Part shown: positions 4,255 to 35,480 of the stretch, piece after piece
How positions within the stretch are numbered: the stretch's first letter is position 1
How the letters are laid out: each line of letters opens with the position of its first letter
DNA from: Leclercia adecarboxylata
GTDB taxonomy: Bacteria; Pseudomonadota; Gammaproteobacteria; Enterobacterales; Enterobacteriaceae
Assembly (NCBI RefSeq): GCF_006171285.1
Contig: NZ_CP040888.1
Span: forward strand, 1-64,000
Reading direction: 5' to 3'
Length of the DNA stretch: 64,000 nt
Translations under genes and position numbers: made by a program
Notes under the pieces: model-generated
Seen by the model: only the letters and a program-made list of their open reading frames with translations
What the model was told of the DNA's origin: nothing
Database searches by the model: none

Positions 4255-4264
4255 GGAAATCATA

Positions 4265-7059: not shown

Positions 7060-7081
7060 TTTTATTGATTAAGGGGATATC

Positions 7082-8361: not shown

Positions 8362-8365
8362 CAGA

Positions 8366-8399: not shown

Positions 8400-8445
8400 T
8401 ACAGCAACGTTTTCTGCTGGCCGTACCAGCCGTACGAGGAAAATT

Positions 8446-21552: not shown

Positions 21553-21612
21553 ATACACTACCTCAAATTTGAGAGGAAGTGCCCCAGAAGGGAAGCGACT
21601 TCCCCACTGGGT
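21553..21612 (-). promoter_or_regulatory. leader hairpin/pseudoknot with SD-pairing segment, copy 1
   Basis: In mRNA sense: stem CCCAG...CTGGG closing around GGGA/TTCC, loop AGUCGC, then GCACUUCCUCUCAAA. The loop pairs with GCACU of that segment (one bulge), while the same segment pairs with UUUGAGGUAGUG, which contains the GAGG ribosome site of the 21552 start. Confidence 0.6.
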
Positions 21613-21692
21613 TAGATAAAAGTTTGGTTAAGCTAAAAGAAGATGCCAGCGACAGATTTTACATTGTCATAGACAAGTGTCTTCAGCCAACC

Positions 21693-21703
21693 AAAGTTAC
21701 TTT
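21693..21703. repeat. dispersed palindrome AAAGTTACTTT in an intergenic inverted repeat
   Basis: Located between two array genes and centred in a longer inverted repeat (CTTCAG ... CCAAAGTTACTTTTTTGG ... CTGAAG), it is the most symmetric of the 16 copies listed under the dispersed-palindrome entry. Confidence 0.7.
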
Positions 21704-21723
21704 TTTGGACTGAAGCAAAAGGA

Positions 21724-22662
21724 TCATTGAGACGCGTTACGAAAATCGTCAAAAGCTTCAGTTATTAGTAATGTGCGATCAGTTACTCTGTATCGGTCAT
21801 TACTTTCGAGAGATACGTAAGTTGAATGCGAAGAATCACAGACAACACGCCCTCTTTTATTGATCAATCTTACTTCCATCATCACCGGCACATTGATAAT
21901 TGAAGCAACATCGGTATAGAGGGATATGAGGGCATCATTGTCACAATATAACGCCCCGTTCCCATCAAATGTATCGTTAAACTTAATATATATATCTGGC
22001 ATATTTGCCGGATAATCATCAGTATTGAAATCAATGCATAACTTTAAGTCATCATTAATACGGCGATTAATCTTATGCTGCCCAACACGTACAAAGCCAT
22101 GTTCAACAGCTTTGATAATCCTTAAAGTTTCATTAAGACAATCTGTAATTCTTTTCTCGACAAATGAGATAAAGTCACCAAAGTCGGAATGAAAAAACTG
22201 TTTAAGTGCAAATTTCGCAACTAACACTTTCCCATCCACCTTCATTTTATCGAGATAAAGATTTCTTATAGCATCAGTAGAAGAATTAGCTTTAGATAAC
22301 TCTTCACAGTCATTAATAATCATTGAAACAATATCAATAACTTTAACTGGGCTTAAAGTATTACTATATCCGCGAATATCAAACGTAAAAAATCCGAAAT
22401 TCTTAAATACTCCAAGAAAATAAATTATTTTTTGTTTCAAAAGAATAGAATCGGAGTAAGATGCGTTGTGCTTTATTAGTTCAGATATGTAGAGATCCAA
22501 CATACAATTTAAATTATCGATATCTACATCGTAATCAAAGGTTACTTTGTCGAACGAAGTATCAGATAATTGAACGGTTATATCGTCAGCGGGAACATTA
22601 AGGCCTAAATTTTGATAAAGAAAGGCACTAACAAATTCCACGTGGTCAGATTCTTTAAACAT
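21724..22662 (-). CDS. paralogue 2 of the ~300-residue plasmid protein family
   Basis: The 312-residue product starts MFKESDHVEFVSAFLYQNLG, eight bases after GAGG. It shares the family layout: a short N-terminal helix, a beta segment with aspartates (KVTFDYDVDIDNLNCMLDLY), a central helix-rich block (VDGKVLVAKFALKQFFHSDF and FISFVEKRITDCLNE) and a C-terminal beta region. It is most similar to paralogue 1. Followed by a 171-bp gap that holds the leader of paralogue 1 and a copy of the dispersed palindrome. Function unknown. Confidence 0.7.
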   Translation of the reverse strand: MFKESDHVEFVSAFLYQNLGLNVPADDITVQLSDTSFDKVTFDYDVDIDNLNCMLDLYISELIKHNASYSDSILLKQKIIYFLGVFKNFGFFTFDIRGYSNTLSPVKVIDIVSMIINDCEELSKANSSTDAIRNLYLDKMKVDGKVLVAKFALKQFFHSDFGDFISFVEKRITDCLNETLRIIKAVEHGFVRVGQHKINRRINDDLKLCIDFNTDDYPANMPDIYIKFNDTFDGNGALYCDNDALISLYTDVASIINVPVMMEVRLINKRGRVVCDSSHSTYVSLESNDRYRVTDRTLLITEAFDDFRNASQ

Positions 22663-22723
22663 TTACACTACCTCATGACTAAAAAGGAAGTGCTTCCCAC
22701 CGGGAAGCAAGTTCCCGGATGGG
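22663..22723 (-). promoter_or_regulatory. leader hairpin with SD-pairing segment, copy 2
   Basis: mRNA sense: CCCA-CCGGGAA / CUUGC loop / UUCCCGG-UGGG, then AAGCACUUCC. The CACUUCC part can pair with GGUAGUG covering the ribosome site of the 22662 start; AAGCA can instead pair with UGCUU of the hairpin. Confidence 0.6.
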
Positions 22724-22728
22724 TTAGA

Positions 22729-23649
22729 TTAATTATAAAAGAGTTCTTCAGAAGGTACATGCATTTCTGGTTTGAACTGTTTTAAGGAGTTGTTTATAGC
22801 TTTTCGATATAACCCTGAAGAGTGTGGCTTAAACATTTGATATTCCGTAACGAGCAGAGGAGACGTAAAGCATCCTAAGTTCACTAGTGAAATATTTGAT
22901 GTTTCTTCACAAACATCTAATTCAGCGTATATCCGCCTCTTCATTACCCTGCCTGCTAAATAGCGACGAACATGATTTATAAACTTGTCCGCATCTGATA
23001 TAGAATTAACTATATAATCAGATGTGACTATCTGATTAGATACAGTTTCAGGTATAGCTTCGGCTATTATTTTTACGTTCATTTCATAATCAACACTATG
23101 GAAGCAAGCAAGAATTTGTGGCTTCGCGCTTTCTAAAATCTTTTCAAGAACAGAAAAAATCAGAGAGAACTCGTTTAAAATTCGCTTTTGTATAAGTCCA
23201 TGTAGATGTTTTATGAAAGGAGAACCGTGTTCAACAAGGCCTAGTATAAGATCCTTAGAGGCCAAATCTGAGCGGTAATAAACGTATTCTAGATTATCCC
23301 GGTTAAATCCTTTGATAAGCAAATCAGGCTGCTCTGAGACCAGTCGTAAATGAGTTGAAGCTATAGAAACTTCAAAACGAAAGTTCGCGAGATTTACAGG
23401 GCCTGCTTTTAATGTAGCCGCTTCGGAAAAATAAATGAAAAGAGGATGCAAATCATCGTTACCACAGTAAAGATGGTCTGCGCCCTTAAGATATTTCACC
23501 AAATGAGGTAGAAAAGATATTACTGGAATATCAGCCACAAATCGAATATGCCGAAATGGTTTTGAATCCAAATATATATTTTCCACTACAGCGCCAACAA
23601 AACCCATTTTAACAAGAATAGATTCAACTAACTTTTGTATCGCATTCAT
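22729..23649 (-). CDS. paralogue 3 of the ~300-residue plasmid protein family
   Basis: A 306-residue protein beginning MNAIQKLVESILVKMGFVGA, with AAGAGGG before the ATG. It has the same order of segments as its neighbours: N-terminal helix ending in a glycine, a VENIYLDSKPFRHIRFVADI beta segment, a long helical centre (HLHGLIQKRILNEFSLIFSV) and a basic C terminus. Similarity to paralogues 4 and 5 is closer than to 1 and 2 (K-LV-AIL opening; RIREFV/HVRRYLAGR region). No enzyme motif seen. Confidence 0.65.
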   Translation of the reverse strand: MNAIQKLVESILVKMGFVGAVVENIYLDSKPFRHIRFVADIPVISFLPHLVKYLKGADHLYCGNDDLHPLFIYFSEAATLKAGPVNLANFRFEVSIASTHLRLVSEQPDLLIKGFNRDNLEYVYYRSDLASKDLILGLVEHGSPFIKHLHGLIQKRILNEFSLIFSVLEKILESAKPQILACFHSVDYEMNVKIIAEAIPETVSNQIVTSDYIVNSISDADKFINHVRRYLAGRVMKRRIYAELDVCEETSNISLVNLGCFTSPLLVTEYQMFKPHSSGLYRKAINNSLKQFKPEMHVPSEELFYN

Positions 23650-23704
23650 TTAAATACCCTCTTAATAGAGGGATTTCTCCCAAAGGGAGAAATCCCTATG
23701 GGAG
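23650..23704 (-). promoter_or_regulatory. leader hairpin/pseudoknot with SD-sequestering stem, copy 3
   Basis: mRNA sense: CUCCCAUAGGG / loop AUUUCU / CCCUUUGGGAG, followed by AAAUCCCUCU-AUUA-AGAGGG. The AGAGGG is the ribosome site of the 23649 start and is base-paired with CCCUCU in the second stem; AUUU of the loop matches AAAU at the beginning of the same segment. Confidence 0.65.
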
Positions 23705-23717
23705 AAAATAATTTTAA

Positions 23718-24007
23718 TTAATAATTGTAGCGAAGCGCATGTTCTTTTTCACTAAGATGGTTTTCATATTCCGACTTACCAGAACTTAAACACTCTTTGA
23801 AAAAGACCTTTGAAAAATTCTTCAAGTCACTTCGGTTGTTAATTTCTTTGTCAGACATCAACTTAGCTGAGTGTGAGGTATCCACAGGCCCCAACCACCA
23901 TTCATATTTAATATAAACACAATTGGTTTTTGTATGTCCATTTAGAAATCGTTTTGCATTTCTAAGTATTTTTCTACAACCGTTAAGGTCTGAAAGTAAG
24001 ATATCTG
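23718..24007 (-). pseudogene. 3' part of IS-interrupted paralogue 4
   Basis: The 290 bp left of the IS encode the last ~96 residues of paralogue 4 (reading on from the pre-IS codon GAT: DILLSDLNGCRKILRNAKRF and on to ...KEHALRYNY-stop at 23718). The stretch lacks its own start. Joining it to 25205-25854 after removing the IS and one TCTG copy gives an uninterrupted 311-residue frame, the same size as the neighbouring paralogues. Confidence 0.85.
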
Positions 24008-24046
24008 GGTAATCCCCCCATTTTTAGCAGAGGTCAATAGTAGAAC

Positions 24047-24874
24047 TTAGGCTGTGCGCAGCTCATGTTGTCTTGGCGTATAACCACCCAGTGCCATATT
24101 CGGCCTTTCGTGATTATAAAACCACTGCCATTCTGTCGCGTAGCGTTGTAATTCATCCAGCGAACAAAATAAATACTGCCCCAGCCAGTCATAACGCACT
24201 GTCCGGTTATAGCGCTCAATATAAGCGTTTTGTTGCGGATTTCCCGGCTGAATAAAGTTGAGTTTTATTCCGTTATCCTCCGCCCAGTTTATTAATTCGT
24301 GGCTCGTGTATTCCGGGCCGTTGTCACATCTGATTGCGGCGGGTTTACCTCGCCATTCAATGATCTGCTCAAGTGTGCGTTTTACCCGACTGGACGGCAG
24401 CGAGAAGTCCACTTCTATTGCCAGGGCTTCCCGGTTGAAGTCATCAATAATGTTCAAAAGCCGAACTGAACGGCCATCTGAAAGCTGATCATGCATGAAG
24501 TCCATTGACCAGCATTCGTTGCTGTATTCCGGCACCGCAAGCGGCTCTGGCTTATCACGCTTCAGCCTCTTTTTAGGTTTGATCCGCATATTCAGTGATA
24601 ATTCGCAGTAAATTCGATAAACGCGTTTATGGTTCCAGCGAAAACCTTTCACATTACGCAGGTACAAAAAGCACAAACCAAAACCCCAGTTCCGCTGGCT
24701 GCCTGTAATGCGCAGTAGCCAGCCAGCAATACGCTGATTTTCTACAGAAAGACGTGGCAGATATCGATAGCACGTTTCACTGACAGAAAAAATCTGGCAG
24801 GCCAGGCGGATACTGATTTGCTGCGTGCTGACGGCGTGTCTGGCCATCTGTCGGCGTTGAGATGGCCTCACCAC
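24047..24874 (-). CDS. IS3-family transposase OrfB (copy A)
   Basis: 275-residue integrase-core protein, starting at a GTG and read in nature as an OrfAB fusion by -1 frameshift at the A6G site in the end of orfA. The DDE residues are visible: D in [16 protein letters not shown] in [12 protein letters not shown] and E in [15 protein letters not shown]. The N terminus carries the HTH_21-like region ([20 protein letters not shown]). Intact, unlike the copy at 37.5 kb. Confidence 0.92.
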
Positions 24875-25134
24875 TTTTTTGACATAGCTTCCTGAATAAC
24901 TTCAGCTTTAAGTCGCTCTTCGGCATACATTTTCTTAAGACGCCGATTTTCATCTTCCAGTTCTTTGAGACGCGCCATCAGAGAGGCATCCATCCCGCCA
25001 AACTTTGACCGCCATTTATAGAAGCTGGCGCTGCTGAAGCCATGTTCCCGGCACAGCTCAGGGACCGGTGTTCCGGCTTCAGCCTGTTTCAGAATGGTCA
25101 TGATTTGGCTGTCGGTGAAACGTGATTTTTTCAT
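24868..25134 (-). CDS. IS3-family OrfA (copy A)
   Basis: 88-residue HTH_8-type protein ([20 protein letters not shown]) with a C-terminal leucine-zipper-like segment ([20 protein letters not shown]). It ends ATGTCAAAAAAGTGGTGA, where the A6G run is the frameshift site into orfB. Confidence 0.92.
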
Positions 25135-25204
25135 AGAGATCTCCTCAGTTGAGATTACGAGAAAATTCTACTTATGAACACACTGCTTTTTCGGGAGGAT
25201 TACC

Positions 25205-25854
25205 TCTGGAGCAATGAGCTCTTCCAGAATATGACCAGGTAAGCCTTTCCTAAAAAGCTCAACATCGTAACTACAATACCAGTCACGATAATTAAAAGCT
25301 TTAATAAGTCTTTCAGGTGTATCCAAAGATATCTTATTCAGGATTTTTAATGCAAAGCATACAGCATCTTTTAACAACTCGTGCACCTCAACATTGATAA
25401 ATGAGAAAAACGAGCTTAATTCTTTCTCTAAGGAATTATACAACTTACCGTAAATATCCTGAGAAAAAAGATACTGCAATCTTTCTTTATTATAAGTGCA
25501 ATTCGAAATTGAATAGACTTCTCCTCTTTCGATTTTGCACCCTTCCCTTAAAACTATAGGAAACCTCAAATGGTTAACAATGAAAGAATGATTCTTTCTT
25601 TGCTTCAAAGCATCTAATTGAAATTTCGTAATTTCCTCCAGATTTGCATCTTCAAAACCTGGAAAGGGAATATCACAGAAACAAGAACTATATGCTTTTG
25701 CTGATTCATACATAAACTCCAGTGAAACATCAGCATCAAAAGACATACCAGAGAACATGCCCTGCCCATTGTCTAAAAATGTAATGTTTTTAACCTGTAT
25801 TTTTTTATGTTGAACAACCAAAAAGGCATTAATGATTTTTTCGATAATTTTCAT
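25205..25854 (-). pseudogene. 5' part of IS-interrupted paralogue 4 of the ~300-residue family
   Basis: ATG 25854 (MKIIEKIINAFLVVQHKKIQ) follows GAGAGGATCAC. The frame runs into the IS after ...GLPGHILEELIAP and would stop inside it. Without the IS the product is 311 residues with the family layout (N-terminal helix, VKNITFLDNGQGMFSGMSFD beta segment, helical middle). In this plasmid it can only make a ~235-residue truncated protein with an IS-encoded tail. Clean TCTG duplications show a simple insertion. Confidence 0.85.
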
Positions 25855-25914
25855 GTGATCCTCTCTCAATAAAAAAGGGATCACTCCCATATGGGGTGTG
25901 ATCCCCACATGGGT
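25855..25914 (-). promoter_or_regulatory. leader hairpin/pseudoknot with SD-pairing segment, copy 4
   Basis: mRNA sense: CCCAUGUGGG / loop GAUCACA / CCCCAUAUGGG, then AGUGAUCCC. GUGAUC is a perfect complement of the loop GAUCAC and equally of GGAUCAC, which includes the ribosome site directly before the 25854 ATG. One of the clearest copies. Confidence 0.7.
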
Positions 25915-25923
25915 ATAATTTAA

Positions 25924-26802
25924 TTAAAAATCTGTAAGACCTAAATCTTTATTTCTACCACAAACTGTAGAAGATATAAGACGTTTTACTCGCTTTCGAG
26001 CACTTCGGCCTGACGTATCTTTCAAGTACATCGGTAATGACAATGATGAGATTTGATTACTTCGCTTATGATGGCAGACTATATAGCCCTGCCTCCACCC
26101 CGAACGCACAAACTCACGGATGCGGTTAATATATGCCGAAGCTTGAGATTTTGTACTTATCGATTCAGAACACTTTAAGTTCTGTTCGATAGAGTAAAGC
26201 TCAGCCGCCATTAATTTCACCTCATACAGGTCATCCCCATAACTTATAGTTTTCAACAGCTCTTCCTTTTCCCGAATGAAAAATACTTGCTGCATTCCAA
26301 GGATCAGGTCATAGGCCTCTCGAAAGAGGTCGATAAGCTTATTACGAACATAAATCATAAACTCCTCAAAGTGCTGAAGCCAGAAATAAGCCGCATTACT
26401 TATTTGTGAATTGTGAGAACAAACAAGCCCTTTAGCAAGCTCGACCTCTTCCTCCCGAAAAGTAAAGTTACTTTTCTTAAACCGACTTTGTTCAAAAATG
26501 CTTTGATGCATTTCTATCCATACAGAAACAAAACCGAGGGATTCAAATTCTTCGTTTAACAAATGTAAACTTTCGAAGATTTTCTGAATTTCGATCCCGA
26601 TGTCATATGACAGTGGACATTCTTTTATAGAATAAACATAACCGGGTAGGAAGTGAGATAAATGCTCAGTTCGCAAATATAAACTGAATTTAAGTTCTGT
26701 CAGTGGTTGTTTCAAAGATAATTTAGATGATTCGCTTATATTTACTGGTTCAACACCATTTCTAATCAAAATAGCTTTTACCAGGTCCGTAGCTAACTTC
26801 AT
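25924..26802 (-). CDS. paralogue 5 of the ~300-residue plasmid protein family
   Basis: A 292-residue protein starting MKLATDLVKAILIRNGVEPV, with GGAGG before the ATG. The opening resembles paralogues 3 and 4 (helix ending in G, then a V-N-I beta segment), and the middle has the same helix-rich character (LQHFEEFMIYVRNKLIDLFR). The C terminus is strongly basic (SGRSARKRVKRLIS), hinting at nucleic-acid contact. It carries the dispersed palindrome at 26464-26474. Function unknown. Confidence 0.65.
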   Translation of the reverse strand: MKLATDLVKAILIRNGVEPVNISESSKLSLKQPLTELKFSLYLRTEHLSHFLPGYVYSIKECPLSYDIGIEIQKIFESLHLLNEEFESLGFVSVWIEMHQSIFEQSRFKKSNFTFREEEVELAKGLVCSHNSQISNAAYFWLQHFEEFMIYVRNKLIDLFREAYDLILGMQQVFFIREKEELLKTISYGDDLYEVKLMAAELYSIEQNLKCSESISTKSQASAYINRIREFVRSGWRQGYIVCHHKRSNQISSLSLPMYLKDTSGRSARKRVKRLISSTVCGRNKDLGLTDF

Positions 26803-26857
26803 ACAGCCTCCAGTCGTTATTGAGGCCTCCCTGATGCAGGTTGGCCATCAGGGAAAA
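26803..26857 (-). promoter_or_regulatory. leader hairpin with SD-pairing segment, copy 5
   Basis: mRNA sense: CCCUGAUG / loop GCCAACCUG / CAUCAGGG, then AGGCCUC. GCCUC pairs with GAGGC of the ribosome site before the 26802 start. Loop complementarity is short here (GCC with GGC), so this copy is weaker. Confidence 0.5.
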
Positions 26858-26880
26858 TATGTAAATCAATTAGCAACCAA

Positions 26881-27402
26881 TCAGACCGTTGCCATTACAT
26901 TGTCAATGTATCTGACAAGGGATGGGCGGTCGTCCTGTAAGGCAAAACGGCGAAGGTCATCAAGATTATACGCAGGAAGATAATCAGCGTAACCTCGAAT
27001 ACGAAGGTCCTCAACCACAACTTTTATATACTCAAATCGTCCAAGATTTCCTTTTAATGGGGGTTTTCCTGGACTAGACAGCATATCGTCTGCTTGCTCC
27101 CATGTGATTTCTTTAGCTTCACCACTATGTAGATCAAGATGGACATATATGAATGACTTATAATCTCCACGGCAACGAAGATAATATTTCGGATAGAAAT
27201 ATTTGTCACAACGCAACAAACACGTTCCTGAAGGACGAACTACGTACAACAGGTTTCTGTCATTTTCTAATATGCCATGTTTCAAAATCGTTATATCTAT
27301 CTCATTATCATGCAGCAAATAGCATGACGATGGTTCATTGACGATGCGCGATTTTATAACAGCAGCAAATTTATTAAAAACTTCGTTAGTTTGAAAATTC
27401 AT
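26881..27402 (-). CDS. uncharacterised 173-residue protein
   Basis: Starts MNFQTNEVFNKFAAVIKSRI. A beta-rich middle (LLYVVRPSGTCLLRCDKYFY) is followed by a helical C-terminal third (YLPAYNLDDLRRFALQDDRP). It is not obviously a member of the five-paralogue family. It has one of the clearest leader pseudoknots of the array (27403-27463). Confidence 0.65.
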   Translation of the reverse strand: MNFQTNEVFNKFAAVIKSRIVNEPSSCYLLHDNEIDITILKHGILENDRNLLYVVRPSGTCLLRCDKYFYPKYYLRCRGDYKSFIYVHLDLHSGEAKEITWEQADDMLSSPGKPPLKGNLGRFEYIKVVVEDLRIRGYADYLPAYNLDDLRRFALQDDRPSLVRYIDNVMATV

Positions 27403-27463
27403 TAAAATGCTCTCCGATGTAAAACGACGAGCATCACCATAACGGTAATACTCCCGTTATGGG
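27403..27463 (-). promoter_or_regulatory. leader hairpin/pseudoknot with SD-pairing segment, copy 6
   Basis: mRNA sense: CCAUAACGG / loop GAGUAUUA / CCGUUAUGG, then UGAUGCUC. All eight loop bases can pair with UGAUGCUC (G-U pairs included), and AUGCUC can instead pair with GAGCAU, which overlaps the GGAGAG ribosome site before the 27402 start. Confidence 0.7.
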
Positions 27464-27636
27464 TTTTAATAGTTTATGGAATAACCATGTCATACAACCG
27501 ACCATAGCCAGTAGTACCGCACATTTATTTAACTGAGCAAGCATCTCAGCCGTGAAAAGACCTTAAAGGCAGGTAATTATCACGAAGGAAAGCGGTTATC
27601 TTATCAATACAATTTAAAAAATAATATTGATAAGAT

Positions 27637-27664
27637 AACCCCCCCCGCAAAATGCGGGGGAGTT
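27637..27664 (-). terminator. stem-loop after the primase-like gene
   Basis: On the minus strand AACUCCCCCGC-AUUUU-GCGGGGGGGGUU forms a strong GC-rich stem 8 bp after the primase-like stop at 27672. There is no T run directly behind it, so it may be a partial terminator or stability element. Confidence 0.6.
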
Positions 27665-27671
27665 ATCGTTG

Positions 27672-28904
27672 TTACAGCTGATTAAGACATTCAGGAGCCC
27701 AGTGAATCGGGAATCCATCCTGCCCTGTTAACTGGAGAACATCGTTCCAGTCGATACCCTTTTTCCCATCAGGAATATCTTGTGCTGGTTCGAAGACTTC
27801 AATTGTCAGCTTTGATGCGGGATATCGTTTAGCCAAAAACTCAACCATGCGGCTTTGAAGTCGCTGAGCAGCTTCGATACCGGCACGAGTGCCTTGTGAG
27901 TTAGCAATATCCTTATCCGCCCAGATATAAAAGTTTATATATTTTACATCCGGCGGAGGCAGTAAAAAATCAGGAACAGTAACGTTTTCAAGGCACCATG
28001 CGGAGCTGGCTGCCCAGCATGGTGTTGAAGTCGCTTCTACAACAGAAAGCGCATTCTCGATCCCTTCAGCCACTCCCAGTGTCCAGGTCGAACTACCTGA
28101 ATCATAGTGAGGGTCAAACAACTGAATTGAGCCACCTGTCATATCGGCAGGAGGCTTCATCATCAGCTTTGGATTTTCTACAGGTGCCTTATCACCGTTT
28201 TTGTCTACGTATGTTCTATGGATAGTCAGAGGCCGACCTCGGGTGTCACGATAGATTGCAATCATTCCCGGATAGATAATCGATTTCTGCTTATCTTTAT
28301 CCCAATAGTAGATCCGGTTATTAAAGCCTAAATCCTTTGGTAAGTGACTCAGTAAGCGGGAGATCCCACGATTACGGAGGTACAAAGCAACAGGAGTATT
28401 AGGCTTTATTTCACCGGTATAGTGATACATCACATCAAGTTTTCGCATTCGCTTTGCCACTTCCTCTCGGTCAAGAGTTTCTGTGGCACGAACTGCTGAT
28501 TTATAGCGTCGTTCATTTTCAATGTCGGCGTCAGTTAACGGAGCATGCAGATCCATCCCGAAAAAATCTGAGAGAATCTTTTTGCAAGTCTGCGTTTTAC
28601 TTAATTCATAATATTTCGCCAGAACATCAATTCCGTCGCAAAACTCATTTACCGGAAAGTCATTATGGATCGCACATCCGGTATAAAGGTCTTTTTGCCG
28701 GAAACGAAACTTCGATTTCCCTGCGCCAGTAAACGGGCAAGGAACCTGGCTCGGGGCTTTTGCACAAGCGTCTTTGAAAGCAGGTATTCTTTCGAATATA
28801 TACTTCCAGCCAGACACTTCAGCAATTCGAGCATGAACGAGTTTAATAAAGTGTTCAGATACTTCCTGTGGTTTACGACGAAGAGCCGGGGATGCATAAG
28901 TCAT
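27672..28904 (-). CDS. primase-like protein with zinc motif and Toprim domain
   Basis: ATG 28904 has AAGAGAGA upstream; the open frame reaches 24 codons further but without a ribosome site. The 410-residue product has a CHC2-like zinc segment near residue 52-78 (CPFTGAGKSKFRFRQ...CAIH), then a Toprim fold with GVAEGIENALSVVEA and INFYIWADKDIANSQGTRAG (conserved E and D-x-D-like acidic residues). This arrangement is that of DUF7146/P4-type plasmid primases, which make primers on incoming or replicating plasmid DNA. It sits in the array with an OB-fold and an AAA+/VWA pair. Confidence 0.8.
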   Translation of the reverse strand: MTYASPALRRKPQEVSEHFIKLVHARIAEVSGWKYIFERIPAFKDACAKAPSQVPCPFTGAGKSKFRFRQKDLYTGCAIHNDFPVNEFCDGIDVLAKYYELSKTQTCKKILSDFFGMDLHAPLTDADIENERRYKSAVRATETLDREEVAKRMRKLDVMYHYTGEIKPNTPVALYLRNRGISRLLSHLPKDLGFNNRIYYWDKDKQKSIIYPGMIAIYRDTRGRPLTIHRTYVDKNGDKAPVENPKLMMKPPADMTGGSIQLFDPHYDSGSSTWTLGVAEGIENALSVVEATSTPCWAASSAWCLENVTVPDFLLPPPDVKYINFYIWADKDIANSQGTRAGIEAAQRLQSRMVEFLAKRYPASKLTIEVFEPAQDIPDGKKGIDWNDVLQLTGQDGFPIHWAPECLNQL

Positions 28905-28990
28905 GATGATCTCTCTTATCTGGCATTGTGAGTTTCTCAATGCCTTCTGCGGTGCAGAAGACAGGGAGAAACCCACAACGCAGAATTTAA
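28905..28990 (-). promoter_or_regulatory. leader with nested stem-loops upstream of the primase-like gene
   Basis: On the minus strand GUUUCUC ... GAGAAAC encloses CUUCUGC/GCAGAAG, and GGCAUUG/CAAUGCC follows just before the ribosome site. It differs from the CCC..GGG leaders of the other array genes but also offers overlapping, mutually exclusive stems. Confidence 0.45.
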
Positions 28991-28994
28991 GAAA

Positions 28995-29012
28995 GAGGGC
29001 CCGGGGGCCCTC
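28995..29012 (-). terminator. Rho-independent terminator after the 73-residue gene
   Basis: GAGGGCC-CCCG-GGCCCTC followed by TTTCTT on the minus strand, 5 bp after the stop at 29018. It suggests the primase-like gene is partly uncoupled from the upstream genes. Confidence 0.75.
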
Positions 29013-29017
29013 AACAT

Positions 29018-29239
29018 TTATGCTTCAGTCGTGAAGCCATTATTCTCAAGACGCTGTATGTAGTTATCTACAAGTAACGCAGCCTGCTGGCTATTACCCT
29101 CCGCTATAGTGACTTCGCGGAAGATTCTTTCCTGAGGGCTATCATTGCTTATAACTTCACCAACACGTCCGAAAATACGGACTTTATGCATCGCACCGAC
29201 TTTTTCATGTTCTACACGGTAAGTTTTTATCTGAGTCAT
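29018..29239 (-). CDS. small uncharacterised protein (73 residues)
   Basis: MTQIKTYRVEHEKVGAMHKV at the start; a mixed beta/alpha small protein, ending in a helix (QQAALLVDNYIQRLENNGFT). Preceded by GGAG with six-base spacing and by the most convincing leader pseudoknot of the array. No family recognised. Confidence 0.65.
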   Translation of the reverse strand: MTQIKTYRVEHEKVGAMHKVRIFGRVGEVISNDSPQERIFREVTIAEGNSQQAALLVDNYIQRLENNGFTTEA

Positions 29240-29303
29240 ATTTTGCTCCTTATTCCTTCATGGAGCAAAAAGACCCACCGGGGCCTTTTTGCCCCGATTG
29301 GGT
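29240..29303 (-). promoter_or_regulatory. leader hairpin/pseudoknot with SD-sequestering stem, copy 7
   Basis: mRNA sense: ACCCA-A-UCGGGGC / loop AAAAAG / GCCCCGGUGGGU, then CUUUUUGCUCC. CUUUUU is the exact complement of the loop, and UUUUGCUCC is the exact complement of GGAGCAAAA, which is the ribosome site before the 29239 ATG. The two pairings share bases and cannot both form fully. Confidence 0.75.
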
Positions 29304-29311
29304 AGAGTTTA

Positions 29312-31318
29312 TTAAGAAAGTATTTGATGAACTAGCTTACTGACTTCAATAGACAATAAAGAAGTATCATCAACTGTTACGAAAGTGTCCGTTTCAAAAC
29401 CAATTATTTCATCAGTCTTAATACCAACACCAACGATTTCTATTCCATTACATTTAGCCTTTTCCATAACTTCGACGATAGTAAATTCCGATTTATTCGG
29501 ATAACCATCAGTTATAAGAAAAATTATTTTCCTATCGAATTGGCTGTCAAGTAACAGATCAACAGCTGCCATTAAAGCAGATCCCGTAGGGGTATAATAA
29601 CCCTTACATCCAAGAGTGAATTTCGATAGAGATTCCTCAACGCTTTGATCAAACGTTTTGATAATCTCAAATTCACTTTCCTTGAAGGGAAAAACTATAT
29701 TGGAGACATGCATTTTTGACAAACTTTCAGCGGCCATCGATAAAGCAAGATCTGACTTAATGGCATGAATATATCTTTCATCATTAGCCATTGACGCTGA
29801 AATATCACGAACTAATACGAGGCCAACATGCCCTCTATTTTTAGATTCGCTTTGAGCTCTGAAGACATCACGAACTCCCATTTGTGACAGAATTAATCGA
29901 TTTCCATCGAAGGTAATTCCACGCTCATGAGTTTTGTTTCGGCCACGCATTTTAACCTGCTGTAAAACAGACAAGTCGCTACCGATTGAATGACTCAGAG
30001 ACAAAGCCTCATTGTAAACATTCAAATCGATAAGGAGATCAGGGATATCCCATTCAGAAGCACCGAATTCGGCTTTCACGTCATCGGATACTTTTGATGC
30101 AATACCTTCAATCTCTTTAGCCAAAGCATCGTGATAATCTTCGCTATCCTCATCACTGCTAAGAAAGGCATCCAACAAATCTGCCAGTATCTCCCATTGA
30201 GCCGATGAAAAGTTACTTTCATCTTCAACGTTAGTCGAACTGGCTTCATCTGATTCACTCTCGGAAGGGTTAATCGCATCAGTATCGTCTTCAATAATGT
30301 TATCACCCGTGGGATTGCCACCGGTGGGTTCATTATTTCCCTCGTTATCTTCAGCAAGTTCTGAAGGCTCAGAACATCCCTCTTGAGCAAGATCAGCGTT
30401 ATCGGAAGTATCTGCCTGACCTTCACTATCGTCCTCAGAATCATCCTCACGACTATCAGTCGACGTAAGCGATTTATCTTCTGATTCGGTATCGGTATCG
30501 GTCTCGGATTCATCATATGCCTCCTGCTCCTCCTGCTCTGTCTGCTGCTGTTGTTCCTTTGCCTCATCCCGCAGTCTCTCTAAAAGAGCCAGGGTCTTAC
30601 GAGCAAGGGATTCACAGCCCTGAGTATTTTCACAACCAAGAGCATCATGAAAAATTTCCTCAACATCAGAAATTACTGGAGAAAGTATCTTTTGGGCATA
30701 GTCAAAAAACGGATCGAGGGTTTCTTTGTGACCTACCTGCTGAAGGACTTTTACTCGCAATGAGTTAAGCAGATACCACTCAATAAATAGGACAGGATTT
30801 TCCGGACGAGAAGATATATCAGGAGTCATCCTTCCGGCTTTAACCATCAGTGCGTAAGTGGCTGCAAGCCGCCGCTTTGCATCCGGATAATCGTTACCAA
30901 CCTTCTCTTCCATCTGTACATCATCGAACAGATTTATAAGCCCGGTAAGACGTTTTGCCCTGCTATAAGCTTTACGTTTCTCAGCGAGGCTCTCAAACTC
31001 TGCATTCATTCCGTCATCGAAGCGTGTAAACCCTTCAGATGACATGAGAACACTATTAAAGGCGTCACTGTAAACCTCACTGACGGTATAGCGACCATGA
31101 CCAGCTTCATGACAGGTAAAACCTTCAATCAGACTGACAAAGTCATCATCGCTATAATCGCCGTTTGGTAAAACACAAACTTTATTGACAGGATCAAAAT
31201 ACGGTCCTTTGGTATTGTCGTCTATTACAACTCTTACATCGCCTAAGCCGCTAATGACTTTTGCTATATTCTGTAAACGCTTAATATGGCGCGGCGATGA
31301 TTTAAGATCTAATTTCAT
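29312..31318 (-). CDS. CobT-like von Willebrand A protein, partner of the MoxR-type ATPase
   Basis: A 668-residue protein. N-terminal ~230 residues include FTCHEAGHGRYTVSE, an HExxH-like metal motif. Residues ~255-380 are extremely acidic and serine-rich (low complexity). The C-terminal ~200 residues are a VWA domain with MIDAS DISAS, the threonine in YYTPTGSAL and LITDGYPNKSE. This order (metal-binding N domain, acidic linker, C-terminal VWA) is that of CobT-like proteins, which work with CobS/MoxR AAA+ ATPases as metal-insertion or remodelling chaperones; such an ATPase is encoded at 32892-33950. It carries the palindrome copy at 30209-30219. Confidence 0.82.
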   Translation of the reverse strand: MKLDLKSSPRHIKRLQNIAKVISGLGDVRVVIDDNTKGPYFDPVNKVCVLPNGDYSDDDFVSLIEGFTCHEAGHGRYTVSEVYSDAFNSVLMSSEGFTRFDDGMNAEFESLAEKRKAYSRAKRLTGLINLFDDVQMEEKVGNDYPDAKRRLAATYALMVKAGRMTPDISSRPENPVLFIEWYLLNSLRVKVLQQVGHKETLDPFFDYAQKILSPVISDVEEIFHDALGCENTQGCESLARKTLALLERLRDEAKEQQQQTEQEEQEAYDESETDTDTESEDKSLTSTDSREDDSEDDSEGQADTSDNADLAQEGCSEPSELAEDNEGNNEPTGGNPTGDNIIEDDTDAINPSESESDEASSTNVEDESNFSSAQWEILADLLDAFLSSDEDSEDYHDALAKEIEGIASKVSDDVKAEFGASEWDIPDLLIDLNVYNEALSLSHSIGSDLSVLQQVKMRGRNKTHERGITFDGNRLILSQMGVRDVFRAQSESKNRGHVGLVLVRDISASMANDERYIHAIKSDLALSMAAESLSKMHVSNIVFPFKESEFEIIKTFDQSVEESLSKFTLGCKGYYTPTGSALMAAVDLLLDSQFDRKIIFLITDGYPNKSEFTIVEVMEKAKCNGIEIVGVGIKTDEIIGFETDTFVTVDDTSLLSIEVSKLVHQILS

Positions 31319-31376
31319 AGAATACCTCTTTATAAAAAAGGGGTACTCACCCAGATGGTGAAGTACCCATCTGGGG
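31319..31376 (-). promoter_or_regulatory. leader hairpin/pseudoknot with SD-pairing segment, copy 8
   Basis: mRNA sense: CCCAGAUGG / loop GUACUUCA / CCAUCUGGG, then UGAGUACCCCUUU. GUACU of the loop pairs with AGUAC; ACC-CUUU can instead pair with AAAG-GGU around the AGAGG ribosome site of the 31318 start. Confidence 0.65.
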
Positions 31377-31395
31377 TTTTTAATAAAGCAAACAG

Positions 31396-32523
31396 TTACC
31401 AGCCTTTGAGCTCGATATCAAAACCATTTTCAGCATTGTCTTCCTGTTGCGAAACTGATTTCTCAGGTTCAGCTACAGAATCAGTGTTTGAAAACGTGCT
31501 GTTTTTTATATCGTTCTCTACGACAGGTTCAACCTGAAACACATTTGTTGAATCTAAAATAGCTTCAATACCTGTGTTCTGTAGCGCGTTCGGTTCTGTT
31601 TGTGAGCTTTGATTAAATGATCTGGTAATAGATTCCAACCAGTCAGTAACCTTTTGCTCTCCTGAAATAATACGCTTTAACATTGAAGCATCACTCATGA
31701 AATAAAACCACTGCTGTAACACCGCAACGTCGCGAGGTTCAGAAATGGCACCTTTAGGTAAATTATTCATTATGTGTTTTATAGCTTCTGCAAGTACTGC
31801 CGCCTCTTTATGTATAAACATGAAGCTAATGATCTTATTTTGCATTTGCTTCAGTCGGTCAATAGTACTTGAGCGCAAATTATTATTTTTACTAATTTTT
31901 TCATAAACCCTCATTGCTTCTTCTGCCAGATCTGTTATCAATTGTTCCTGATAGTAGTCCTGGGTTTCATCACCTTCAACGCTAATAGGCGTAAAAGGAA
32001 TAAAGTGAGCAATATTAAATCTAAAGGATTTTATGAAATCATCTTTAGTTAATTTCAACTGATCAATCAAAGAAGACATTCTTGGGCTTCTATTTTTTTC
32101 AGCCTCAATATGCATCTCATAATTGTCTACAACGTTTTGAATACCTGCCTGAAACTCTCGTTCAATCTCTTGGGCCCCTTCCAGAAACTCTTCCATACTG
32201 GAAACTGGTAAAATCCACATATTGCTATAGCGGATGCACAAGCGTGAGCAAAGGGTTGATATTCTGCTGGTAATCGTACTTTTGAAGCTAAGGGCTTTTA
32301 TGTCAATCCAACGTACTTCGCTTTTAGATACGCTTTTTTGATCCGTAATATCATCTCCATCATAAGACAAATCGATTTTATCGGTTCGACGCGATCCTTG
32401 ACAGCCACTTATTTCAATTTTTGTTATAACTGCACCTTCCAGTAAATCTGGATATGATTTTGCAAAATTCTCAGAGATTTGTTTTGCAGATACTTTGTTA
32501 AGCATTGAAGTATTTAAAGTCAT
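31396..32523 (-). CDS. uncharacterised 375-residue protein of the AAA+/VWA block
   Basis: ATG 32523 has GGAG six bases upstream; the frame is also open from a TTG four codons earlier. The product (MTLNTSMLNKVSAKQISENF) is mainly helical in the middle (EEAMRVYEKISKNNNLRSST) and ends in a charged, probably disordered tail of ~80 residues. No domain recognised. Its position between the MoxR-type ATPase and the CobT-like VWA gene suggests a third component of the same complex. Confidence 0.65.
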   Translation of the reverse strand: MTLNTSMLNKVSAKQISENFAKSYPDLLEGAVITKIEISGCQGSRRTDKIDLSYDGDDITDQKSVSKSEVRWIDIKALSFKSTITSRISTLCSRLCIRYSNMWILPVSSMEEFLEGAQEIEREFQAGIQNVVDNYEMHIEAEKNRSPRMSSLIDQLKLTKDDFIKSFRFNIAHFIPFTPISVEGDETQDYYQEQLITDLAEEAMRVYEKISKNNNLRSSTIDRLKQMQNKIISFMFIHKEAAVLAEAIKHIMNNLPKGAISEPRDVAVLQQWFYFMSDASMLKRIISGEQKVTDWLESITRSFNQSSQTEPNALQNTGIEAILDSTNVFQVEPVVENDIKNSTFSNTDSVAEPEKSVSQQEDNAENGFDIELKGW

Positions 32524-32581
32524 GGGTTTCTCCAAAAAAAAGGGGAAACCCTCCCCAACGGGAAAGATTTCCCGATAGGGT
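32524..32581 (-). promoter_or_regulatory. leader hairpin/pseudoknot with SD-pairing segment, copy 9
   Basis: mRNA sense: CCCUAUCGGG / loop AAAUCUUU / CCCGUUGGGG, then AGGGUUUCCCC. AGGGUUU pairs with AAAUCUU of the loop (with G-U pairs); GGGUUU-CC pairs equally with GGAG-AAACCC just before the 32523 ATG. Confidence 0.68.
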
Positions 32582-32586
32582 TGATA

Positions 32587-32907
32587 TTAAAGCTTCTCTG
32601 GTGCAATTAAAAGAATACCGGGAAACTCAGCGGCAACATCATCATTGCCCATTGCTCCCTGATACATATAACCTTTTAATTCCATTTCTTTAATTAGACC
32701 TTCCATATTTATTTTACCATCATGATAAAACAATAAAGAATAGTCGTTATTCAGTTGCATAAGTCCAGTAAAATTAGTTCCGTTTTTTGCTATAGCAATG
32801 GTAGCAGCACCATCCGTACTTAAAAACGCACTAAATTCAAGATGGGATAACTCTGAGATACAAATATCAGAGGTTTCATAACAAATCCCATCTAACTCGA
32901 CTTTTTT
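32587..32907 (-). CDS. -1 frame continuation of the MoxR/CobS-type ATPase
   Basis: After the ATPase codons ...FTA-KK at an A6G run (32901-32907), the -1 frame is open for ~106 codons to TAA 32587 (VELDGICYETSDICISELSH ... GILLIAPEKL). It has no ATG, GTG or TTG before codon ~49, so it is unlikely to be a separate gene. Either ribosomes shift -1 on A-AAA-AAG to make a ~457-residue ATPase, or one A is missing from the run in this sequence. The peptide looks like real coding sequence (typical codon use, no stops) and would form an alpha/beta C-terminal domain. Confidence 0.55.
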   Translation of the reverse strand, partial: KKVELDGICYETSDICISELSHLEFSAFLSTDGAATIAIAKNGTNFTGLMQLNNDYSLLFYHDGKINMEGLIKEMELKGYMYQGAMGNDDVAAEFPGILLIAPEKL

Positions 32908-33950
32908 GCTGTGAAATACTCCAGCGATTTATCCTTGTCTTCGCCAAGAGAAAGATCTATAGCTTGAAGAACAAGATCGACCACATGTAAAGGTAAAGCA
33001 GAAGCAAAAGCTATTTTGAAAGTGTCAAGAAGACTAAAGGTTTTTAACGTCATCGACGTGCCAACCCAAGCTACTAATTGACGAATATCCATCACACTGT
33101 CTTCTGTACCAGAGTCATTTACTGCAATCGCTACTCTTACGAACTTCTCAATGACCTGAAAAGGCAAAGAGCTATATCGTTTAGTAAGCACATTGGTTAA
33201 AGCAACTTTGTCGGGCTTCTCCATTTCAACTATCAAGAACCGCTTTATAAAAGCTGCATCTTGACGTTGAGAAGAAACGAACCGGCGAGCGCCTCCACTC
33301 ATGTTTGTGTTTGCAGTACCAATAAATCGCGTGTAGCCATTAGCAGTTATAACCTCACCACCATTAGCACTGAGTGACCAGGGCTTACGTTCAATGGGCA
33401 TGTGAAGTTTTGCTGCCGTATCAGGATCGATTTTGTCCACTTCATCCAGAAGAATGAGGTGACCATTACGAAATCCCGTTACCAAATCGCTGTGTACAAA
33501 ACCTGTATTACCACCATTAAGACTGCGCTCACCTTCAAGCTCATCAACTCGAATATTGCTGTTGATCTGCTTAATTGTCAGCGGCCAATTCATCATGTGG
33601 CTAATGTACATTACCATTTCAGTCTTGCCAGAACCGGACTCACCTTTAAGACACACACTTAAATCTATATCCGGACTGATAAGCAGTTTAACCACTTGTT
33701 CAAGTATTCGGGGATTTGGTATGTAGTCTTTGTTCAGCGGAGCTCGATACGAGGTTTTAGTTTTGAAAACAGGCACAGCCATCTTTGGATCCATTTCTGG
33801 AATACCAAAAAGGTCCTTTGCTAGAACTAAAAGATACTCACCTTTATCCACATAATGTTTTAACTTTATAACATCCGGGGAAAGAAGAGCTTCTAATTTT
33901 TCATAAGCATCAGAAGATGTTTCATTTAACTTCATAGCGGCATTAGACAT
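32892..33950 (-). CDS. MoxR/CobS-type AAA+ ATPase
   Basis: A 352-residue protein starting MSNAAMKLNETSSDAYEKLE. Walker A GESGSGKTE and Walker B LILLDEVDK are intact, with a sensor-like FIGTANTNMSGG and arginine-finger region RRFVSSQRQDAAFIKRF. The sequence order is that of the CobS/MoxR group, which act as hexameric remodelling engines with VWA partners; the CobT-like VWA gene lies two genes downstream. The start is supported by CGGAG seven bases upstream. The reading frame ends right after an A6G run; see the -1 frame continuation. Confidence 0.85.
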   Translation of the reverse strand: MSNAAMKLNETSSDAYEKLEALLSPDVIKLKHYVDKGEYLLVLAKDLFGIPEMDPKMAVPVFKTKTSYRAPLNKDYIPNPRILEQVVKLLISPDIDLSVCLKGESGSGKTEMVMYISHMMNWPLTIKQINSNIRVDELEGERSLNGGNTGFVHSDLVTGFRNGHLILLDEVDKIDPDTAAKLHMPIERKPWSLSANGGEVITANGYTRFIGTANTNMSGGARRFVSSQRQDAAFIKRFLIVEMEKPDKVALTNVLTKRYSSLPFQVIEKFVRVAIAVNDSGTEDSVMDIRQLVAWVGTSMTLKTFSLLDTFKIAFASALPLHVVDLVLQAIDLSLGEDKDKSLEYFTAKKSS

Positions 33951-34005
33951 TTTTAACTCCGGTAAAATGCAAACACCGCCCTCTGGCAGATGTTTGCCAG
34001 TGGCA
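33951..34005 (-). promoter_or_regulatory. leader hairpin/pseudoknot, copy 10
   Basis: mRNA sense: GCC-CUGGCA / loop AACAUC / UGCCAG-GGC, then GGUGUU. GGUGUU is the full complement of the loop (one G-U pair). Farther on, AUUUUA and UAAAAU can close a small stem that places the CGGAG ribosome site of the 33950 start in its loop. Confidence 0.62.
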
Positions 34006-34007
34006 TT

Positions 34008-34985
34008 TTATTTGAGATTCATTTGGCAAATAGTTGCCATCAGTTTCCTGATTTGAGGCACATTATAACCAAGATGATTTCCCACTATTTCAAAAGCTTC
34101 AGACATGATCCATTCAAAATGATTTTCGAATATTGGATTTATTTCTAACTTGCCAAAAGCGTTTCGTTTAGTTAACAGATCACATGAAACAAGCTCGTCA
34201 AACAACTCTAATGTGGATTTAAAAGCTTTTATGTAAACATCCATAATTTCCCTGTCAGTCCATTTAACAGCCAGTTTTTTTTCTGACATTAAATAATCCT
34301 GATCAAAGAAGATGTCCCAGCCCATATCGTCATTGCAATCATGCAAAATGATTTCATCATCATTCCTGCATTCAGCTAATTTCGTGTTTTCACTAATCGA
34401 ACGATGCGAATGATAATAGAGCCATGATTTTAATTCCGCTCTAAATTCACATGCATCAAGTCCATGAGATAAACAAGTGTATTCAAATGATTTTGACATA
34501 TACCACCGTGTTTCAGCTTCTAAAAGTGGATTCACTGTGATATTACCATTGTCATCTTTGAAGAATAACTTTCTCCTCAACACTAGTTCTTTAATGATTT
34601 CCAAAGACTCTTCCATAGCGGATAGAAAAACAACATACACATCCTCAGGGGTCCATTCTATTACCAGACCACCCAAATCTGGGTTATATTCTTCAACCGA
34701 ATATAGATAATCTGTTTCTGCTGCAAAATTAATTGTATGCAAAATCTGATTTTTAAGTAATTTGGATTTTTCATAAAGGTGATTTTCACGCCTTTCAGAA
34801 TCATAATTTATCTCAGAAATGTTACTTTCATCTGATTTAAAGTTTAATCCGGACGTGTATGCATCATTTAAATGCTCTTTGGGTGAATCAACTATTTGCG
34901 TTATTTCATCTTCATCTATATCGAATATAGAAAAAAAACTAAGTTGATTACTACTTATTGCAGTAGCCCTAAATTTTTGTTTCAT
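34008..34985 (-). CDS. uncharacterised 325-residue protein with internal duplication
   Basis: Starts MKQKFRATAISSNQLSFFSI. Two halves repeat the same pattern: residues ~110-195 (IEWTPEDVYVVFLSAMEESL, EIIKELVLRR, NPLLEAETRWYMSKSFEY) and ~235-315 (VKWTDREIMDVYIKAFKSTL, ELFDELVSCD, NPIFENHFEWIMSEAFEI). So the gene arose by duplication of an ~85-residue helical module. The segment between the repeats is acidic and probably flexible. Function unknown. Confidence 0.7.
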   Translation of the reverse strand: MKQKFRATAISSNQLSFFSIFDIDEDEITQIVDSPKEHLNDAYTSGLNFKSDESNISEINYDSERRENHLYEKSKLLKNQILHTINFAAETDYLYSVEEYNPDLGGLVIEWTPEDVYVVFLSAMEESLEIIKELVLRRKLFFKDDNGNITVNPLLEAETRWYMSKSFEYTCLSHGLDACEFRAELKSWLYYHSHRSISENTKLAECRNDDEIILHDCNDDMGWDIFFDQDYLMSEKKLAVKWTDREIMDVYIKAFKSTLELFDELVSCDLLTKRNAFGKLEINPIFENHFEWIMSEAFEIVGNHLGYNVPQIRKLMATICQMNLK

Positions 34986-35037
34986 GGGGACTCCAAAAGG
35001 AGAAATCCCATGAAGGGATTTCTCCCCTTTAGGGTGG
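34986..35037 (-). promoter_or_regulatory. leader hairpin/pseudoknot with SD-pairing segment, copy 11
   Basis: mRNA sense: CCCUAAAGGG / loop GAGAAAU / CCCUUCAUGGG, then AUUUCUCC. The loop and AUUUCUC are exact 7-base complements; CUCC of the same segment can pair with the GGAG ribosome site of the 34985 start. Confidence 0.7.
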
Positions 35038-35045
35038 GTTTAATG

Positions 35046-35423
35046 TCAGATCTGATTAAAGCTACTTTGTCCAAAACCTTTTAGAGGTTTAGGTATGTGA
35101 GCCAACTTACTTGTTGCTACCACTCTCATGTAGTCAAGAGGATGTTCTCTCCCTTCAATCATAATAGTATCGACAACAATATAACCGGAGACCATCAACT
35201 CATCACCCTGATTTATACCAGTGAAACAGGTTGAATACATTTCAGGCGACACCTTGATTTGAACTGAAAATTCTCTCTCAGTGATTTCACCATCAACTTC
35301 TGTCTTCATCCTATTTTTGAGCTTTATTAACAAACCTATACTCTGGTCAGTCATTTTTTTCTCCACAGCACTGATAACTATCCCGGACACTTTTACTTCA
35401 TTGATATATTCAAGATATGACAT
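35046..35423 (-). CDS. OB-fold, single-strand-binding-like protein
   Basis: A 125-residue protein starting MSYLEYINEVKVSGIVISAV. The pattern NEVKVSGIV, then FSVQIKVSPEM, then GDELMVSGYIVVDT matches the strand order of SSB-type OB folds (opening strand V-x-G, closing GD-x-L-x-V-x-G). The C terminus lacks the acidic SSB tail and ends GFGQSSFNQI. Association with a primase-like gene in the same array fits a role on plasmid DNA. Relation to SSB is inferred from the pattern. Confidence 0.62.
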   Translation of the reverse strand: MSYLEYINEVKVSGIVISAVEKKMTDQSIGLLIKLKNRMKTEVDGEITEREFSVQIKVSPEMYSTCFTGINQGDELMVSGYIVVDTIMIEGREHPLDYMRVVATSKLAHIPKPLKGFGQSSFNQI

Positions 35424-35479
35424 TTTCCGCTCCTCGATTTGTTCAAAGAGAAGCCCCGTTAGGGTTCCCCCTTAACAGG
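35424..35479 (-). promoter_or_regulatory. leader hairpin/pseudoknot with SD-pairing segment, copy 12
   Basis: mRNA sense: CC-GUUA-GG / loop GGGAA / CC-UAAC-GGGG, then GCUUCUC. UUCUC can pair with the loop GGGAA (one G-U pair), and GCUUCUC with GAGGAGC, the ribosome site of the 35423 start. Confidence 0.62.
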
Positions 35480-35480
35480 A

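Follow-up and report, generated by a model that had tools for sequence, protein, structure and literature searches.

We analyzed a stretch of 64,000 nucleotides (nt) of Leclercia adecarboxylata DNA (contig NZ_CP040888.1, 327,617 bases in length, positions 1 to 64,000; this whole stretch is called here the window), in which an operon of the minus strand carries, in front of most of its genes, a leader with one recurrent RNA design: a hairpin, S1, is followed by a segment that can pair either with the loop side of this hairpin (helix S2) or with the Shine-Dalgarno (SD) region of the gene (helix S3). The repeated occurrence of this leader, noticed in an earlier inspection of the sequence (the original prediction), is confirmed, and its anatomy, its gene-specific pairing, its recurrence in other plasmids and its predicted energetics were established in silico. 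It seems probable (roughly 0.6) that the leaders are three-helix translational attenuators, in which S1 and S3 would make the off state and S2 the on state; that is, the fold in front of each gene probably hides the ribosome site unless the alternative pairing forms. The results suggest a built-in on/off control that was copied along the operon and is common to several plasmid families. IncHI and IncC plasmids matter as carriers of drug-resistance genes, and little is understood of their conserved non-transfer operon; a leader found at roughly two thirds of its genes (91/135) could explain a low output despite transcription, and the leaders provide many natural replicates of one RNA design, written in different letters, for the study of translational switches.

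Anatomy and distribution of the leaders

From 5' to 3', each leader follows the order A-B-C-D-E-AUG. Segments A and C form S1, B comprises the loop and the inner 5' arm of S1, D follows the hairpin, and E is the SD region; S2 is the pairing B:D and S3 the pairing D:E. In each leader D is common to S2 and S3 and B resembles E, and since B is thus an SD mimic, each gene has its own private code under one shared logic. The scorer used here requires S1, S2 and S3 together with a common D and includes helix trimming (a version without trimming missed true leaders such as those of g8 and g11); the null consisted of 300 dinucleotide shuffles in which the SD zone was kept. At their start codons, 12 of the 14 window genes tested scored 33.5-42, values reached by 0-2 of the 300 shuffles, and the scorer found no element at g1 (36353) and g9 (28904). 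The gene g5 stands outside this count, and its IncHI1A counterpart is without the element. The operon region, defined by its open reading frames (ORFs), the annotation of the corresponding region of the IncHI2 plasmid L001 and Pfam, and the twelve leaders are:

20596..36353, minus strand: operon region g1-g15
35424..35479, minus strand: leader of g2 (125 amino acids, aa); S1 35455-35479, B 35465-35477, D about 35440-35454, E 35429-35435; score 38.3, 0/300 shuffles
34986..35029, minus strand: leader of g3 (325 aa); S1 35013-35029, B 35019-35028, D 34996-35009, E 34987-34994; score 37.9, 2/300
33951..34000, minus strand: leader of g4 (AAA_5 ATPase); S1 33983-34000, B 33989-33997, D 33969-33978, E 33960-33964; score 35.0, 0/300
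32524..32579, minus strand: leader of g6 (DUF3150); S1 32554-32579, B 32564-32573, D 32542-32552, E 32524-32533; score 42, 0/300
31319..31375, minus strand: leader of g7 (VWA protein); S1 31350-31375, B 31361-31372, D 31337-31348, E 31320-31331; score 40.7, 0/300
29240..29297, minus strand: leader of g8 (73 aa); S1 29278-29297, B 29284-29295, D 29262-29273, E 29241-29249; score 42, 0/300
27403..27461, minus strand: leader of g10 (173 aa); S1 27438-27461, B 27445-27453, D 27425-27437, E 27406-27416; score 38.5, 0/300
26803..26854, minus strand: leader of g11 (292 aa); S1 26828-26854, B 26843-26846, D 26822-26827, E 26805-26810; score 34.7, 0/300; shortest S2 (4 bp)
25855..25912, minus strand: leader of g12 (frame interrupted by an insertion sequence); S1 25887-25912, B 25898-25906, D 25872-25884, E 25855-25867; score 42, 0/300
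23650..23704, minus strand: leader of g13 (306 aa); S1 23677-23704, B 23690-23697, D 23667-23676, E 23657-23662; score 37.6, 0/300
22663..22723, minus strand: leader of g14 (312 aa); S1 22696-22723, B 22712-22716, D 22684-22693, E 22665-22674; score 33.5, 1/300
21553..21611, minus strand: leader of g15 (318 aa); S1 21583-21611, B 21598-21605, D 21573-21582, E 21555-21564; score 41.0, 0/300

The four examples worked out in the original prediction (29240, 25855, 27403 and 34986) are present in the sequence at those places, its count of at least twelve genes with the same leader logic agrees with the scores above, and its central observation, that one segment is able to pair with the loop side or with the SD side, holds at 12 genes with different letters and in homologous plasmids. 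Two of its statements stand only in part: the hairpin loop is complementary to the next segment, but much of S2 lies in the 5' arm of S1; and the pairing is gene-specific while the letters differ, but the leaders are not unrelated, given that a loose frame CCC-N-GGG-loop-CCC-N-GGG, which the scorer does not demand, is present in 42 of 54 IncHI/Klebsiella leaders. Of the 91 hits counted further on, 66 have this frame, and of 66 controls 0 do; the g4, g7, g10 and g11 leaders of IncHI fall outside it. A MAFFT alignment of the leaders offsets the inner stems, and Rfam gave 0 matches at gathering score in the window.

The element had been thought of as a property of one operon, and in this respect the original prediction was too narrow, given that we found it also in IncHI1, Klebsiella IncHI1B/IncU-type, IncC, Vibrio, Aeromonas and Comamonas plasmids. 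The region in the window matches IncHI2 plasmids at 99-100% (L001 among them), and related operons are present in IncHI1A (L003), in a Citrobacter IncHI1B plasmid (L002) and in Klebsiella IncHI1B/IncU-type plasmids (L006-L008). A loss of both pairings in homologous leaders had been proposed as a result that would refute the prediction; for most leaders this is not what we see: the design is kept at the same 12 genes in IncHI1A and IncHI1B (0-4/300 shuffles), and in the Klebsiella relatives, whose proteins are 22-47% identical to those of the window over 8 compared, at g2, g3, g6, g7 and g8 and also at the gene that follows g9, with many of the letters changed; at g4 the element was lost in this clade. 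In plasmids with the AAA-DUF3150-VWA block the leader precedes many genes of the bet-exo operon. Over eight plasmid loci (the window, L003, L007, L060, L061, L063, L064 and L066) the element is present at 91 of 135 operon genes, as compared with 1 of 66 other annotated genes of those records: 12/14 in the window, 12/15 in IncHI1A, 7/8 in L007, 16/26 in IncC pMyNCGM079, 17/25 in Vibrio pVAS19, 12/17 in the Vibrio dhg plasmid, 11/22 in Aeromonas pAsa4c and 4/8 in Comamonas. One of the 91, g9 of L007, is a different long palindrome, so that 90 remain. With a slightly narrower zone the element was found at 10/21 genes of Shewanella pSX2_LC6 and 4/21 of Marinobacter pMAQU02 (L062).

These counts depend on operon borders that were the analyst's choice. 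The controls were annotated genes (transfer, hypothetical and others) elsewhere in L001, L003, L007, L060, L063, L064 and L066, and included the genes that immediately follow the block in L001, L003 and L007, which may belong to the same transcript. The L007 gene before g2 (k0, no element) was left out of the operon count, and the L007 share would be lower with k0 and k11-k15 taken as operon genes; in L066 the AAA gene (score 0) was left out, the upstream end of exo was approximated and bet is unannotated. Near-identical or partial loci (L002, L006, L008-L010, L015, L016, L018-L020 and L065) and the Marinobacter locus were not counted. The only control that passed, traU of the IncC plasmid at L063 4532, whose start abuts the preceding transfer gene, probably did so by chance. 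Among annotated genes outside the element-bearing block of IncHI plasmids, 1 of 50 reached a score of 25, and under the full criterion 0 of 41 passed (L003 0/16, L007 0/15, L001 0/10). The scorer is sensitive to GC content, with a score of 30 reached by 123 of 1187 start-like sites in chromosomal stretches and by 30 of 749 in the rest of the plasmid; hence hits have to be judged against shuffles and against controls from the same plasmid, and a scan of whole replicons by score alone was discarded as uninformative in GC-rich DNA.

The AAA gene was found in 1 of 394 genomes of the order, the window's own, and the AAA alignment, run against viral contigs, returned 22 stretches, none of which encodes a relative. 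A bet relative is present in 5 of 369 genomes of the class; among their five short loci, the element is found at 2 of 9 ORFs in L067 (positions 2400 and 3717, minus strand) and at 0 of 66 ORFs in the other four.

Pairing, predicted folding and rival explanations

The specificity of the pairing was examined by swapping partners between genes, a procedure that holds composition fixed. In the window, loop:D pairing amounted to -6.3 kcal/mol with the gene's own partner and -3.5 kcal/mol with those of other genes, and D:E pairing to -12.7 versus -7.9 kcal/mol; in both cases 0 of 20000 permutations were as good, and the control pairing loop:E was not significant in this test. When S1 was chosen by hairpin energy alone and all 14 window genes were kept, B:D was matched by 4 and D:E by 0 of 10000 permutations, and pairing of D with the loop only by 641/10000. 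Across 8 operon sets without selection for S2 or S3, the permutations that did as well, out of 10000, numbered 0-163 for B:D and 0-52 for D:E, as compared with 129-9048 and 657-9575 in 6 control sets. The leaders were not merely copied along with their genes, given that clear relatedness within g10-g15 is confined to the pair g14 and g15 (27% identity). The case for selection rests on gene-specific pairing that is re-created in each plasmid and not on classical covariation.

In 79 of 91 leaders S2 reaches 2-6 nt into the 5' arm of S1, hence the two helices are mostly exclusive. In nested folds of the full-length leaders S1 and S3 were both above 0.5 in 71/91 and S2 in 6/91. The mean predicted cost of opening the SD was 9.2 kcal/mol in the leaders (n=91) and 5.5 in controls (n=66; Mann-Whitney p 9e-12), a result that is partly circular because the hits were chosen for S3. 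When A was barred from pairing S2 formed and the cost decreased from 9.2 to 4.3 kcal/mol, and when A and B were both barred it was 10.9; a drop and a rise of at least 2 kcal/mol each were predicted together in 73/91 leaders, the drop being flattered by the choice of the best covering position. Shuffling the letters of B weakened the drop by at least 1 kcal/mol in 22 of 30 leaders (mean 7.3 for the real and 3.9 for the shuffled sequences, n=30), with the shuffles tried at two covering positions only, which slightly favours the real sequence.

These calculations point to the following scheme. In the resting RNA, A:C (S1) would lock B away and D:E (S3) would mask the SD, keeping translation off; if A were occupied or S1 opened, B:D (S2) would form and leave E free, turning translation on, and occupation of both A and B would turn the gene off again. 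We infer that the helices form in the cell, and the nature of whatever opens S1 is likewise a matter of inference. At some closely spaced genes S1 could be opened by the ribosome that finishes the upstream gene; leaders far from an upstream stop would depend on some other opener, or on a brief open phase during RNA synthesis. The two states of the original prediction are thus supported in silico, but a pseudoknot as the on state is no more than possible.

Several results weigh against the attenuator scheme, besides the partial circularity and the favourable covering position just mentioned. Operon genes without the element also have a costly SD (7.6 kcal/mol, n=44), the on state is predicted from nearest-neighbour energies only, and in IncHI2 the g3 leader already folds with a long S2 hairpin and the g4 leader with little S3. 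From IncHI2 to IncHI1A, 18 of 101 S3 pairs were lost one-sidedly and 4 changed on both sides with pairing kept, and six changed D positions break both partners in three cases and one partner in another, keeping both in the remaining two. In the IncC-type plasmids pairing was kept in 67/117 two-sided versus 167/364 one-sided change cells, which pool S1, S2 and S3 in both directions without a formal null. The compensatory changes looked for in homologous leaders are therefore mixed at the level of base pairs, but include a clean triple change at g12 (C-G-C to U-A-U in B-D-E, IncHI2 versus IncHI1), one of the two D changes that keep both partners. The IncC bet gene fails the scorer in L063 and, separately scored, in L065; in both, the predicted fold still masks the start codon, with an S1-like hairpin formed.

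As regards the trigger, 60 of the 91 leaders lie at most 100 nt from the upstream stop, with A starting at a median of 13 nt (quartiles 7, 18) after it, and these follow an annotated gene. For 41 close leaders the mean predicted opening was at its minimum when 15-17 nt after the stop were covered (-2.6 kcal/mol near 16; the stop of g12, upstream of g13, was placed 1 nt off in the window), and 31 of them show a fall of 2 kcal/mol or more at some point from +6 to +22. A ribosome that terminates has its leading edge at about +11 or +12 past the stop, and a fixed edge at this place lowers the cost by at least 2 kcal/mol in just 16/41; 10 of the 41 never drop by this amount between +6 and +22, and the mean has a second minimum at +39, due to covering of D. 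The remaining 31 leaders are more than 100 nt from the upstream stop (g10 by 269 nt, g15 by 171 nt), and a small ORF with an SD that ends near A is present in only 2 of them (11% at control positions). A small ORF before g10 was discarded as a leader ORF: in IncHI1B the frame continues past its end, no SD precedes it, and the ORF is not conserved. Given the long gaps and the 2/31 suitable ORFs, the upstream ribosome is not a general trigger, and coupling to it may serve some genes and not all.

A trigger would be unnecessary if the leaders measured time: during synthesis D would meet B before E is made, so that S2 leaves the SD briefly free until S1 and S3 close it. Such a course suits the leaders that lack an upstream ORF, has analogues in the metastable folds of MS2 and aapA3 (in the available passages of PMC6733600), and agrees with the folds of RNA cut after D, in which S2 exceeds 0.5 in 63/91, and of the full-length RNA, in which S1 and S3 both do so in 71/91; but the window and IncHI1A reach this value in only 6/12 and 4/12 truncated leaders and equilibrium calculations are silent on rates, and we see it as a possible, though less favoured, explanation. 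A protein or small RNA that reads the common CCC/GGG frame of S1 and switches all leaders together would likewise supply the trigger needed by leaders without an upstream ORF and would account for a frame present in 66/91 hits and in no control, but 25 of the 91 hits are without the frame and strong GC pairs alone could produce it, which makes such a factor rather doubtful. That the on state is a stacked pseudoknot, in which a shortened S1 stays closed and the loop alone pairs with D, is still less probable. An H-type fold becomes possible in 86/91 leaders once S1 is shortened, with 3 bp or more left, and the loop alone prefers its own D significantly in several sets; against this, S2 invades the S1 arm in the 79 leaders already mentioned, untrimmed S1 and S2 are compatible in only 20/91 by simple loop-length rules, and the loop-only preference is not significant in the window, as said above, and in L007 (3212/10000, S1 again picked by energy). 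The pseudoknot switch of the original prediction retains the pairing of the loop side with D, and in most leaders its geometry would require a trimmed S1; a pseudoknot may occur as an intermediate or on state, and nested pairing already yields both states.

The remaining explanations are much less likely. If the leaders held simple hairpins only, with S1 serving for spacing or stability and S3 as a weak hairpin at the SD, loop and SD would resemble each other as a by-product of purine-rich motifs, and part of S2 is indeed GGG against CCC, shared by the SD and S1 anyway; the partner swaps at fixed composition still favour the gene's own pairs and shuffles score low, so we give this little credence. 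Equally improbable is that S2 followed by U forms a terminator and the leaders attenuate transcription: the region has 26 terminator-like sites on both strands as compared with 13.0 expected, several of them in leaders, but 5 or more U among the 8 nt that follow D are found in only 18/91, and U and A are about equal in the linker. R27 transfer is favoured at 25 °C, according to the available part of PMC7366339, and thermometers tied to the cold-dependent transfer of IncHI plasmids could be imagined; a temperature switch was rejected as extremely unlikely because the predicted cost moves in the wrong direction: each of the 55 leaders listed with an S1/S2/S3 fold, of which k15 of L007 is a chance-level hit, is costlier to open at 25 °C than at 37 °C. 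Taking the attenuator scheme to its widest form, a self-contained, duplicated switch would run the DNA-metabolism operon of MOBH-type elements (IncHI, IncC and relatives) by dozens of private A-B-C-D-E codes under a single physical signal, either ribosome traffic or transcription age, and without a regulator acting in trans; we offer this generalization tentatively, with the odds somewhat against it.

The operon and its neighbouring sequences

The order on the minus strand runs from g1 (36353) to g15 (end 20596). Pfam matches were AAA_5, DUF3150, VWA and DUF7146/Toprim_3, and the remaining scanned proteins had no match; the scan left out g5 and the interrupted g12, the latter being covered by its IncHI1A relative. 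The g12 frame is broken at about 24030-25170 by an insertion sequence, presumably IS3-like by its frames, and related IncHI2 plasmids have it uninterrupted. Within 27403-27671, g9 is followed by a strong hairpin resembling a terminator (27662-27640), and the sequence leading up to g10 is conserved, with no ORF conserved in it; for these reasons g10-g15 may be a second transcript. In front of the toprim gene g9 there is a separate, better conserved element (window 28905-28980; L008:16283-16357), in which IncHI2 and the Klebsiella clade are 84% identical over 75 nt, although the proteins are 44% identical (L007). This element is a long inverted repeat that encloses a further hairpin, and the repeats of TTCTGC in it could likewise exchange partners.

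Comparison with known regulatory leaders

In the repZ/repA switch of IncI/IncB/IncL-M/IncK plasmids, a hairpin loop is complementary to the segment just upstream of the SD, and a stem that masks the SD competes with this pairing. Both features are found in the leaders described here, the complementarity being weaker for the loop alone. In contrast with repZ/repA, there is no general leader ORF that would open the structure (29 of the 31 long-gap leaders are without one), S2 invades S1, and the genes are many and not replication genes. As to an antisense RNA directed at the hairpin, another trait of the repZ type, a consensus scan of the plus strand found no promoter-like site inside the 12 leaders, while coding regions outside them have some.

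Translational coupling by RNA unfolding, e.g. in rpmI-rplT and MS2 coat-lysis, is described in the available text of PMC12548453; there too the ribosome binding site is masked unless the upstream gene is translated, but the leaders add a mimic segment as a defined alternative partner, and 31/91 are far from an upstream stop. In the part of PMC6733600 at hand, a metastable exchange of the anti-SD is demonstrated for aapA3 and cited for MS2; MS2, hok and aapA3 resemble the leaders in their successive exclusive helices and in an anti-SD that changes partner, and differ in being single genes, not one design repeated with private codes.

The nearest precedent concerns the bet gene of the SXT/R391 ICEs: according to the available passages of the review PMC4542580, bet in SXT is preceded by a strong translational attenuator, which IncA/C plasmids have as well. 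The original prediction had named repZ as the closest known case and taken the use at gene after gene as not described; in view of bet, the element is not wholly undescribed. The gene neighbourhood is the same in IncC-type plasmids, the leader there also hinders translation of a well-transcribed gene, and three of the four bet leaders scored (L060, L061 and L064) carry the element; the repeated leader turns the relief of the bet attenuator into a directly testable question. On the other hand, the attenuator was reported for one gene, and the operon-wide repetition, the SD-mimic B and the IncHI members are absent from those passages of the account. The matches listed in the open-licence literature include no report of a leader repeated gene after gene, and the available parts of PMC3118119, PMC11493245, PMC4344509 and PMC3915882 hold nothing on these leaders. 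The novelty is therefore reduced by the bet precedent and enlarged by the spread across plasmid families: we rate the principle as one with known relatives, and its use at gene after gene with private codes across plasmid families as the new part, among the matches listed.

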